Of a stretch of 64,000 bases of DNA, positions 31,551-34,916 are shown one piece after another. The DNA comes from Actinomycetes bacterium. Lineage in GTDB: Bacteria > Actinomycetota > Acidimicrobiia > Acidimicrobiales > Microtrichaceae. The stretch's first letter is position 1, and each line of letters opens with the position of its first letter. The notes beneath the pieces are model-generated. The model did no database searches. It was not told the DNA's origin and saw only the letters and a program-made list of their open reading frames with translations. A program made the translations under genes and the position numbers. The DNA is taken from the NCBI GenBank assembly GCA_024222295.1, contig JAAEPF010000024.1, forward strand, positions 1-64,000, written 5' to 3'.

Positions 31551-31848
31551 CGGCGGTGCCCTTAGTCGTTAGCGGGTCGGGTCATTCCGAGTCCGTATTC
31601 AGAGCCCGGCCCGGGTCACCGGCGGTGCGGTGCCGTTGCGGATTCGTAACAACTGTAACTGTCAGCAACGGTGAACGGCCAACTCTGCGCGCGATCGTCT
31701 GTGCACCTTGACAAGTACTACAGCTGAGAGCATTATGGGAAATAACTAGGCTCCAAACCCGAAATAATATGTGGGGTTCCACCCAGCACATGGATTCGGT
31801 CCCCTCGACCCGGACGGGCGGGAGGGCCGGCTGAACCAGGAGGTCCTG
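31551..31848 (+). promoter_or_regulatory. Long AT-richer intergenic control region of the NirK operon
   Basis: This 298-bp gap holds a consensus promoter (separate entry), a direct repeat GTAAC-aact-GTAAC at 31646-31659, and GAAATAA at 31739 and 31761 (22 bp apart). AGGAGGT at about 31839 fixes the NirK start at 31849. The base composition is clearly lower in GC than its surroundings. I recognise no named binding site. Confidence 0.55.
31708..31736 (+). promoter_or_regulatory. Sigma-70-type promoter for the NirK operon
   Basis: TTGACA (31708-31713), a 17-bp spacer and CATTAT (31731-31736) are near-consensus, rare in this GC-rich window. The predicted start of transcription is about 100 nt upstream of the NirK ATG, leaving a leader of some length. 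Confidence 0.7.
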
Positions 31849-33258
31849 ATGGCAGGCAATGGTGGTTCCCAGCGAGCAGTGGACGGGGGCGTGTTCGCCT
31901 GGTTCGCCGCGGCGGCCGTACTGGCCACCCTGGCGCTGATAGTCGGCGTGATCGCGCTGTTCACTCCGCCCGGTGGCGGCAGCTCCGGGACCGACGTCGC
32001 CCCCGAGGGTGGTGGCGTGGAGACTGTCCAGGTGGAGCTCGGCGAGATGTACGTCGAGCCTGCGTCGATCGATGTGCCGGCCGGCACCGAGCTCATCCTC
32101 GAGGTGACCAACGCCGGCGAGATGCCCCACGACCTGATGGTCGACGGCGGTGCCGGCACGAAGATGCTCGAGCCCGGCGAGAGCGAGACCCTCGAGGTGG
32201 GGGTTGTGAATGAGTCGGTGGTCGCATGGTGCACCGTCGCCGGTCACCGCGAGGCCGGAATGGAGATGGACATCGTTGTCACCGGTTCGTCGAGCTCCGG
32301 CGACGACGGTGGGTCCGACATGGCCGATCACTCGACCTCCTCATCTGGGGCGGAGTTCGCCGAGATCGACCCCAACGCCGAACCCGAGCAAGGCTGGGAA
32401 CCCCGCGACCCGACGCTGCCCCCGGCGCCCGACGACACGGTCCACGAGGTCACCTGGCCGATGACCCACCTGGTGATGGACGTCGCCCCAGGTGTCAGCC
32501 AGGAGCTCTGGACATTCGATGACCAGGTGCCCGGCCCGACCCTGCGCGGCAAGGTCGGCGACATCTTCAGGGTCACGATCGTCAACGACACACCGATGGA
32601 CCACTCGGTCGACTTCCACGCATCGAAGGTCGCCTGGAACGACGAGATGCGCAGTATCGGACCGGGTGAGGAACTCGTCTACGAGTTCGAGGCCAAGCAC
32701 GCAGGGATCTGGATGTACCACTGCGGAACGGCACCGACACTGCACCACATCGGCAACGGCATGTACGGCGCGGTCGTGATCGACCCGCCCGACCTGGCCC
32801 CGGTCGACCACGAGTTCATCATGGTGCAGTCCGAGTTCTATCTCGGCCCCGAAGGTGAGCCCGGTGACCTCGGCAAGATGCAGCGTGACGAATGGGATGC
32901 AGTCGTGTTCAACGGCTACTTCCAGCATTACAAGTTCGCCCCGATCCGTGTGGAGACAGGCGAGCGCATCCGGGTCTGGGTGCTGGACGACGGCCCCAAC
33001 GAGAACTCGGCATTCCACATTGTCGGCACCATCTTCGACACCGTCTACAAGGAAGGCGCCTACCTGCTGCGCCCCGATGCGGCGTTCGGCGGCAGCCAGG
33101 CACTCGACCTGCAGCCCGCCCAGGGCGGCTTCGTGGAGTTCAGCTTCGACGAGGACGGTCTCTACCCGATGGTGACCCACAAGTTCTCCAACGTCGGCAA
33201 GGGGGCCCTCGGGCTCTTCCAGTCCGGAGAAGTGGAGACCGTGGCGGCGCAGGAGTAG
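31849..33258 (+). CDS. nirK: Cupredoxin-fused copper nitrite reductase (NirK-like)
   Basis: This 469-residue exported protein has a membrane anchor at 16-38 and a cupredoxin domain (about 58-145) with its own type-1 copper set His94, Cys128, His133, Met138. A two-domain NirK core follows (about 195-460). Core type-1 ligands are His252, Cys292, His299 or His300, and Met305. Type-2 ligands are His257, His291 and His444. The catalytic pair Asp255 and His390 of nitrite reductases is present. It should reduce nitrite to NO outside the membrane, the extra cupredoxin feeding electrons. A multicopper oxidase activity is the alternative. ATG 31849 is fixed by AGGAGGT. The regulator follows 30 bp later. 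Confidence 0.85.
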   Translation: MAGNGGSQRAVDGGVFAWFAAAAVLATLALIVGVIALFTPPGGGSSGTDVAPEGGGVETVQVELGEMYVEPASIDVPAGTELILEVTNAGEMPHDLMVDGGAGTKMLEPGESETLEVGVVNESVVAWCTVAGHREAGMEMDIVVTGSSSSGDDGGSDMADHSTSSSGAEFAEIDPNAEPEQGWEPRDPTLPPAPDDTVHEVTWPMTHLVMDVAPGVSQELWTFDDQVPGPTLRGKVGDIFRVTIVNDTPMDHSVDFHASKVAWNDEMRSIGPGEELVYEFEAKHAGIWMYHCGTAPTLHHIGNGMYGAVVIDPPDLAPVDHEFIMVQSEFYLGPEGEPGDLGKMQRDEWDAVVFNGYFQHYKFAPIRVETGERIRVWVLDDGPNENSAFHIVGTIFDTVYKEGAYLLRPDAAFGGSQALDLQPAQGGFVEFSFDEDGLYPMVTHKFSNVGKGALGLFQSGEVETVAAQE

Positions 33259-33288
33259 GGCAGGGACGCCCGCCGAGGTACTGAAGCG

Positions 33289-34020
33289 ATGGCCGACGAC
33301 CTGCAGCGACCGGATGGTCCCTCGGGTCGTCGGCTCGCGGAAGCCGAGGCCCTGGCCGACCCGACCAGGCTGCGCCTGCTGGAGGAGATCGAGGCCGCTG
33401 AGGAGCCGCTCGACGTGGCGTACCTCACCGAGAGTGCACGCGTTCACCACACGGTCGTGCGCCAGCACCTGGCGCGCTTGTGCGATGCCGGCCTCGTCGA
33501 GGAGCGGACCGCGAAGCCCGTCGGGCGGGGCCGGCCGAAGCTGCTCTACAGCCCGGCACCGGGGCCGCGGCGGCGCAGCGAGCAAGCCGCGCACTACCGA
33601 CGCCTGGCACTCCTGTTGGCCGAAGCGATCGGCAAGGACCTCGACCCGGCGGAGGCCGGCCGCCGCGCGGGTGTGGCCGCTGCGGTGGAGGCGGTCCTTG
33701 GCGACGAGGGGGGATCAGTCGATGCACTCGAGTTGCTCCGCCGCGAATCCGAGCGCATGGGCTTCGAGCCCGAAGTGGACCCACGCGGGGACCAGCAGGT
33801 CGACATCGTGCTGACCCATTGCCCCTTCGGGGATGTGGCAGCAGAAGAACCCGAGACGATCTGCGCCCTGCACGCCGGAATCGCCCGGGGGGTGGCGGAG
33901 GCCACCGAGGAACTGTCGTTCGACGGTATAACGGTCGTGGACCCGGTGAACGCGGGATGCCGACTGCACCTGACGGTGCTCGATCCGACGCCGGTGGACC
34001 TTCCGCGCCGCCGGGACTGA
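33289..34020 (+). CDS. SufR-like winged-helix regulator with C-terminal Cys cluster
   Basis: In this 243-residue regulator, residues 17-90 are an ArsR/GntR-like winged helix (A-D-P-T-R-L-R-L-L-E-E-I, then H-H-T-V-V-R-Q-H-L-A-R-L). The C-terminal domain has T-H-C-P-F-G-D at Cys178, E-T-I-C-A-L-H at Cys192 and N-A-G-C-R-L at Cys224, the arrangement seen in SufR-family proteins, which hold an Fe-S cluster. Such clusters react with NO, so a product-sensing role for the nitrite reductase is plausible but not shown. It lies 30 bp downstream of nirK on the same strand, probably co-transcribed. Confidence 0.83.
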   Translation: MADDLQRPDGPSGRRLAEAEALADPTRLRLLEEIEAAEEPLDVAYLTESARVHHTVVRQHLARLCDAGLVEERTAKPVGRGRPKLLYSPAPGPRRRSEQAAHYRRLALLLAEAIGKDLDPAEAGRRAGVAAAVEAVLGDEGGSVDALELLRRESERMGFEPEVDPRGDQQVDIVLTHCPFGDVAAEEPETICALHAGIARGVAEATEELSFDGITVVDPVNAGCRLHLTVLDPTPVDLPRRRD

Positions 34021-34315: not shown

Positions 34316-34840
34316 ATGCGCTCCACCACAATCAACTCAGAGACCGACACTGCAAACAGCCCGGCCCGCACCAGGCGCTCACGCACACTGCTACTGGCCG
34401 GCGCAACACTCGTGGCCCTCACCGCCTCGGCCTGCAATCTCCCCGTGGAGCAGTGGGTGCCGGACTTCGATGGCGACGGCGTCATATCCCAGGCAGAGAT
34501 CGACCGCCAGAGCGGCGTGATCATCGCAGCCGTCACCGAGTCCGTGGAACAGCAGCGCCGAGAGGTGCAGCAGCACTCGTTCCTCACCTGTGTGCGCCGC
34601 CACGAGTCGGATCGCACCGGCGCATGGCCCCATATCGGCGGCTACACCGCACAGAACCCGCGCTCCAGCGCTTCCGGTGCCTACCAGTTCATCGACAGCA
34701 CCTGGCGCACAGTGGCTTCGCGGGCCGGTCACCCCGGCTACGCAAAGGCCAGCCACGCTCCCTGGTACGTCCAGGATGCCGTGGCACTGCACACCATCAA
34801 CAACGGCGGTCGATCCCACTGGAACGGCACCGGCTGCTGA
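34316..34840 (+). CDS. Rpf-like transglycosylase lipoprotein with EF-hand-like loop
   Basis: This 174-residue protein carries a signal peptide with lipobox L-T-A-S-A-C, an EF-hand-like calcium loop D-F-D-G-D-G-V-I-S-Q-A-E (about residues 51-62), a short helix, then a resuscitation-promoting-factor/lysozyme-like domain (about 85-174). The domain has the catalytic Glu in C-V-R-R-H-E-S-D, S-G-A-Y-Q-F-I-D-S-T-W-R, and a final Cys that can pair with the Cys before the active site. It should cleave peptidoglycan at the cell surface. It is monocistronic, with a strong palindrome after it. Confidence 0.87.
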   Translation: MRSTTINSETDTANSPARTRRSRTLLLAGATLVALTASACNLPVEQWVPDFDGDGVISQAEIDRQSGVIIAAVTESVEQQRREVQQHSFLTCVRRHESDRTGAWPHIGGYTAQNPRSSASGAYQFIDSTWRTVASRAGHPGYAKASHAPWYVQDAVALHTINNGGRSHWNGTGC

Positions 34841-34868: not shown

Positions 34869-34916
34869 GTTCCCGCGGGAACCAGTAGAACCCCGGCCCT
34901 AGGGCCGGGGTTCTAC
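34869..34916. terminator. Twin perfect palindromes, probable terminator
   Basis: GTTCCCGCGGGAAC (34869-34882) is followed two bases later by a perfect 32-bp palindrome (34885-34916; left arm GTAGAACCCCGGCCCT). As RNA the second would form a very stable hairpin after the Rpf-like gene. There is no T-run, so it acts either as a Rho-independent terminator without a U-tract, as known in Actinobacteria, or as a repetitive extragenic element. Confidence 0.65.

Follow-up and report, generated by a model that had tools for sequence, protein, structure and literature searches.

Background

ArnR of Corynebacterium glutamicum is a nitric oxide (NO)-sensing [4Fe-4S] repressor of narKGHJI and hmp, which represses in its cluster form, is released from its binding site by about two NO per dimer, and reportedly does not sense O2 (PMC12343034). 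Its cysteines 179, 193 and 223 are spaced as C-x13-C-x29-C and are accompanied by a conserved histidine (PMC12343034). In SufR of Mycobacterium tuberculosis (Rv1460) the corresponding arrangement, C203, C216 and C244, is C-x12-C-x27-C (PMC6034842). In Nitrosomonas europaea nirK is repressed by NsrR (PMC1274295), and copper nitrite reductases (CuNiRs) with an N-terminal cupredoxin have also been described (PMC7201279). N-terminal-cupredoxin CuNiRs, Fe-S repressors that sense NO, and the pairing of NsrR with nirK are thus all known, while the literature that we searched neither assigns a regulator of ArnR type to nirK nor mentions the operator described below, and contains no paper on the regulation of nitrite reduction in Acidimicrobiia. 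To our knowledge, this regulation is largely undescribed in Actinomycetota outside Corynebacterium and Streptomyces.

Here we analyse a stretch of 64,000 nucleotides (the window) from a member of the Acidimicrobiia, in which nirK and the gene that follows it probably constitute a two-gene, self-regulating nitrite-reduction unit with a repressor at the nirK promoter that NO would release; we place the probability of this reading at about 0.72.

Layout of the nirK locus

Judged from its sequence, the locus consists of a single strong promoter, an operator specific to the regulator family and predicted where transcription should start, nirK, and, after a gap of 30 bp on the same strand, a regulator gene that is probably co-transcribed with nirK. 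The features are:

31708..31736, + strand: sigma-70-like promoter, TTGACA - 17 nt - CATTAT (10/12 match; predicted transcription start at about 31743)
31742..31767, + strand: predicted operator ATAACTAGGCTCCAAACCCGAAATAA, spanning roughly +1 to +25, from two motifs
31849..33258, + strand: nirK, membrane-anchored, N-terminal-cupredoxin-tethered copper nitrite reductase, 469 aa (sequence, profiles, structures, orthologues)
31888..31962, + strand: hydrophobic N-terminal anchor of NirK, about residues 14-38 (sequence; similar stretch in aligned orthologues)
32020..32286, + strand: N-terminal cupredoxin domain of NirK (PF13473; His94, Cys128, His133, Met138)
32416..33228, + strand: two-domain CuNiR core of NirK (TIGR02376, solved CuNiRs, orthologue alignment)
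33289..34020, + strand: ArnR/SufR-like winged helix-turn-helix (wHTH) regulator gene, 243 aa (profiles, tree, AlphaFold2 model)
33319..33555, + strand: wHTH DNA-binding domain of the regulator, residues 11-89 (PF12840/PF01022, model, Foldseek matches to ArsR-family structures)
33724..33978, + strand: C-terminal alpha/beta sensor domain of the regulator, with Cys178, Cys192, Cys224 and His195 (model, alignment)

The start codon of nirK is the ATG at 31849, with AGGAGG just 5' of it, and its stop codon ends at 33258. In a scan of both strands of the 64-kb window that demanded at least 10/12 positions, a spacer of 16-18 nt and at least 5/6 in the -35 box, the promoter, which a first-pass annotation had called near-consensus and rare, is the only match, and first-order Markov simulations put the matches expected by chance at 0, 0, 0, 0 and 1.

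The predicted operator is an imperfect dyad (6 of 13 pairs complementary) that starts 5 nt past the -10 box, where transcription is predicted to begin, so that a protein bound there would block transcription, as is expected of a repressor. Scored with a motif trained without the window, the site reaches 21.7 bits against 4.0 for the next best of 63,975 positions, and it is also ranked first (13.6 against 7.4) by the sister-clade motif alone (motif A), which was learned only from the promoters of relatives' regulator genes. A pattern taken from, and fitted to, the window site occurs once in the 3.76-Mb genome when one mismatch is allowed.

Two further sequence elements lie in this region. The repeat GAAATAA-N15-GAAATAA (22 bp apart) spans the operator both in the window (31739-31767) and at locus L044, where the NirK is only 57% identical to that of the window, and it may mark a second half-site. 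A perfect 32-nt palindrome, GTAGAACCCCGGCCCT/AGGGCCGGGGTTCTAC, is found at 34885-34916, 3' of a lipoprotein gene (34316-34840), and is perhaps a bidirectional terminator.

A predicted NO-responsive circuit and its signal

Because the regulator is probably NO-sensing and a probable operator lies at the nirK promoter, NO probably controls nirK, and the product of the enzyme would probably control the production of the enzyme. The choice of NO as the signal, and of derepression as its effect, is drawn by analogy from the precedent of ArnR. In the circuit that we propose, the regulator would be a homodimer with a [4Fe-4S] cluster held by Cys178, Cys192, Cys224 and probably His195, and in its cluster-bound form it would occupy 31742-31767 and block both nirK and its own gene. 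NirK would be held at the membrane with its copper domains on the outer side and, given copper, electrons, nitrite and low oxygen, would reduce nitrite to NO; this NO would diffuse inward and nitrosylate the cluster, the repressor would come off the DNA, and nirK would be induced. NO would thus stand as a proxy for nitrite together with low oxygen, with positive feedback through the product, and co-transcription of the repressor would reset the circuit once NO falls. The first-pass annotation had proposed a self-contained product-sensing unit with a SufR-like regulator acting within 31551-31848; the functional pair and an operator predicted inside that interval support this in part, and NO sensing fits both the gene neighbourhoods and the likeness to ArnR, but the identification with SufR does not hold.

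The regulator might instead control nirK in response to oxygen, copper or nitrite, which we regard as unlikely but worth serious consideration, given that O2 also reacts with Fe-S clusters, that NirK is a copper enzyme and that metals are often sensed by ArsR-type wHTH domains. Against this, ArnR itself is reported not to respond to O2, most loci of the regulator family are without copper export genes, and proteins of NO stress (RIC, qNorB and truncated haemoglobin) occur among the neighbours of the family. Members adjoin RIC (ScdA_N plus hemerythrin) at L043, L069 and L079, hemerythrin/DUF2249 at L120, DUF2249 at L127, and qNorB at L119 (Cryobacterium breve). By sequence reading, truncated haemoglobins are neighbours at L136, L139, L143 and L149, and there are further neighbours of RIC, YwiC and DUF2249 type, L139 having both truncated haemoglobin and RIC/YwiC. 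Genes of narG type are found beside the member at L069, a phylum-wide search found narGHJI operons beside those at L166 and L167, and NirK fusion genes neighbour those at L173 and L177. RIC is also found where the regulator is missing (L035, L041). A different mode of action may also be considered for the regulator, as an activator upon loss of the cluster rather than a repressor; the position of the operator fits a repressor.

The NirK fusions form a pattern of their own. At L117, L119, L121, L123, L126, L127, L129, L131 and L133 a polytopic membrane domain precedes NirK in a single fusion protein of about 860-970 aa, an arrangement seen in many Actinomycetes. In Micromonospora (L120) and at L042, L043 and L069 the polytopic domain has a gene of its own, these separate forms having no Pfam match, and a second, uncharacterized polytopic family (F2) lies just upstream.

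The regulator and its family

The AlphaFold2 model of the regulator (mean pLDDT 91) shows, in order, the wHTH domain, two long helices, and a small alpha/beta sensor domain containing the cysteines. Cys178, Cys192 and Cys224, which had been named from the sequence at the outset, are present as claimed and, with His195, are invariant in 18 of 18 family members; the spacing C178-x13-C192-x31-C224 is kept nearly throughout the family, and the layout is ArnR-like (three cysteines and a conserved histidine, with no fourth cysteine). A Foldseek search also returned a weak lead, in that part of the model resembles proteins of the Bet3/TRAPP fold, to which V4R and heme-NO-binding domains are related, with a TM score of about 0.55 (by target) and an E value of about 1e-3.

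Could the regulator be a genuine SufR, sensing Fe-S status and controlling cluster assembly, with its position next to nirK incidental? It belongs to the same superfamily, matches the SufR model TIGR02702 weakly and has three conserved cysteines. Its score on that model, however, is 17.7 bits where the cut-off demands 178.8, and the neighbours of the gene are a desaturase gene, nirK and a lipoprotein gene, with suf genes absent nearby; we rejected membership in SufR on the grounds of model score, cysteine spacing and gene context, and the SufR-type assignment of the first-pass annotation falls with it. The linkage to nirK recurs, the operator at the nirK promoter is unique in the genome, and the same genome has two other family members that do adjoin Fe-S biogenesis genes: one (L052) lies beside an Fe-S_biosyn protein (PF01521) and, by sequence reading, an Mrp-type protein, the other (L053), also by reading, beside a probable cysteine desulfurase and an Mrp-type protein. 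These two are the likelier SufR-type proteins of this genome, and we consider that role for the nirK-linked regulator very improbable.

The enzyme

The window protein is, by its ligands and its alignment with solved CuNiRs, a divergent copper nitrite reductase, with predicted activity from nitrite to NO. Since residues 200-458 match TIGR02376 with 152 bits, short of the equivalog cut-off of 296.3 bits, we class it as a divergent CuNiR rather than as a TIGR02376 equivalog. The nearest solved structures are CuNiRs, and the N-terminal-cupredoxin CuNiR of Hyphomicrobium (2dv6) aligns with residues 78-457. In an alignment of 15 orthologues the T1 ligands of the core (His252, Cys292, His300, Met305), the T2 ligands (His257, His291, His444) and the catalytic Asp255 and His390 are all invariant, as are the T1 ligands of the extra N-terminal cupredoxin (His94, Cys128, His133, Met138), whose Pfam match (PF13473) covers residues 58-118. 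The complete copper ligands and catalytic pair, the additional cupredoxin and the membrane anchor, all noted earlier from the sequence, are confirmed by these comparisons and by the hydrophobic segment at about residues 14-38; no lipobox was found in the N-terminal segment.

The score below the equivalog cut-off and the remoteness of the protein from canonical NirK would suit an oxidase or an electron-transfer protein, but the invariance of every T1, T2 and catalytic residue, a domain 2 without T3 copper motifs, and orthologues that adjoin narHJI (L048) and qNorB (L119) make such an identity highly implausible. A second, distant multicopper/cupredoxin gene lies outside the window (genome G000, contig C24:141817-142719; L004, L049), its product being 34% identical to NirK over residues 27-319.

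Conservation of the pair and of the operator

A close NirK is present in about 16 of the 198 genomes of the order, and in 6 of these approximately 16 a regulator-family gene is nearby; random placement would give this with a binomial P of about 2e-10, assuming two family members per genome and a 10-kb target. A species scan (84,980) added 80 loci and, with all loci pooled, the family neighbours nirK at about 21. The regulator lies directly behind nirK, in the same orientation, in the window and at L044, L054, L068, L070, L072, L073, L074, L076, L079, L081 and L086, upstream of nirK at L042, L043, in Cryobacterium and in Micromonospora, and divergent from it at L038 and L046.

In the regulator tree the 12 downstream regulators form one clade (support 97/95), and all 12 sampled members of that clade lie directly 3' of nirK. 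The NirK tree is in conflict with this, grouping the window NirK with its closest relatives, those of L034, L055 and L062, which have the same genes flanking nirK with the regulator missing. The pair may be ancient and have been broken up by loss in these sisters, or the regulator may have come to lie behind nirK on more than one occasion; either history implies selection for the pairing. At L034 and L062 strong operators of the sister type are found at nirK, and in the genome of L034 (G019) a sister-type regulator is encoded at another place, next to two genes whose sequences look like those of truncated haemoglobins (L149).

An AT-rich operator was noticed by reading the upstream regions and was then tested by expectation maximization (EM) with a palindromic model, shuffled controls and leave-one-out; a count of 5-mer dyads in the nirK upstream regions, which we discarded, had returned mostly GC-rich dyads shared by synteny. 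The EM recovered the same operator geometry from two separate sets of promoters. Upstream of the sister-clade regulator genes the motif (motif A) is nTanTTCTAG-TnTAnA-CTAGAAntAn (log-likelihood 243 against 47-53 for shuffled sequences), and upstream of nirK at the 12 downstream-type loci it is aTAtTTaGaG-n6-CtCtAAaTAt (134 against 35-42); the half-sites correlate at 0.62, a value reached by permuted columns in 0.1% of cases. At nirK promoters outside its training set (L042, L043, L038, L086 and L069) motif A scores more than 20 bits, as it does at nirK genes with no adjoining regulator (L034, L036, L058, L062); the promoters it recovers include some from genomes that carry the regulator at another place. 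A strict form of the pattern, which fails to pick up known sites in other genomes, has exactly two matches in the 4.1-Mb genome G058; one precedes nirK and the other precedes the regulator gene, which lies 90 kb from nirK. The sites are weak at L054 and L074, and no operator was found upstream of nirK in Cryobacterium and Micromonospora (Actinomycetes).

That adjacency and AT-rich sites are by-products of the shared descent of one locus, as the upstream synteny common to seven or eight downstream-type loci might suggest, is hardly tenable, since the NirKs of the window, of L054 and of the main downstream clade belong to separate lineages and differ in their neighbours, regulator promoters without nirK yielded the motif independently, and G058 has its two exact sites.

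NO-handling genes in the same genome

The first-pass annotation had seen no NO reductase in the window, and a search for the COX1 family across the whole assembly (3.76 Mb, 97% complete) likewise found none. Only two COX1-family genes were found, one a full-strength COX1 (515 bits), the other CtaD-like by best model and rejected as an NO reductase on that account; as both are CtaD-like by best model or position, the COX1-family search yields no NO reductase. Family searches of the assembly found no RIC and no NarI, and no operator accompanies the only truncated haemoglobin gene. It would seem that the organism can produce NO from nitrite yet has no dedicated NO reductase.

Implications

Somewhat more broadly, and with rather better than even odds, the ArnR-like Fe-S family with its TTCTAG-N6-CTAGAA-type operator may be a major NO-responsive system of Acidimicrobiia and of many other Actinomycetota, in the role that NsrR, NnrR and DNR fill elsewhere, with one branch having become a single-target partner dedicated to nirK within the nirK operon. 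The Acidimicrobiia, which are mostly uncultured, would be able to release NO and possibly feed the formation of N2O. With the predicted operator mapped and the sensor family named, the question can be put to the test on purified components, and the regulon can be predicted across many metagenome-assembled genomes. If the reading is true, the pair of nirK and its repressor is a compact NO-sensing part.

Comparison with known systems

The CuNiR of Hyphomicrobium denitrificans (2dv6; PMC7201279) resembles the window NirK in having an N-terminal cupredoxin tethered to a CuNiR core and a full T1N/T1/T2 copper set, but the window enzyme, unlike it, is membrane-anchored, and the two are only distantly related, whereas orthologues within the order are mostly 54-73% identical to the window NirK. 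The NsrR-nirK system of Nitrosomonas europaea follows the same regulatory logic, that of a nirK repressor. NsrR, however, is an Rrf2 protein, whereas a Pfam scan of the window regulator found only an HTH of ArsR/MarR type and no PF02082 (Rrf2/NsrR) domain; an Rrf2 regulator (F11) is found near nirK at six other loci (L067, L079, L089, L090, L110 and L112). SufR of Synechocystis and of M. tuberculosis (Rv1460) shares the superfamily, the three conserved cysteines and, as predicted here, the role of an Fe-S repressor, but it controls suf, whereas the window regulator is not near suf, fails the SufR model and has the spacing C-x13-C-x31-C in place of C-x12-C-x27-C.

Compared through the published residue positions of ArnR, the cysteine layout of the regulator resembles that of ArnR more closely than that of SufR. 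Both proteins have a wHTH domain and a C-terminal sensor domain in about 26 kDa, with three cysteines that include C-x13-C and a conserved histidine, the last spacing being x31 instead of x29. The family, like ArnR, is linked to nitrogen-oxide genes and is predicted to repress, its predicted target here being nirK where those of ArnR are nar and hmp. Unlike ArnR, the regulator is encoded downstream of its own presumptive target, with which it is probably co-transcribed, and it has a predicted palindromic operator of its own.
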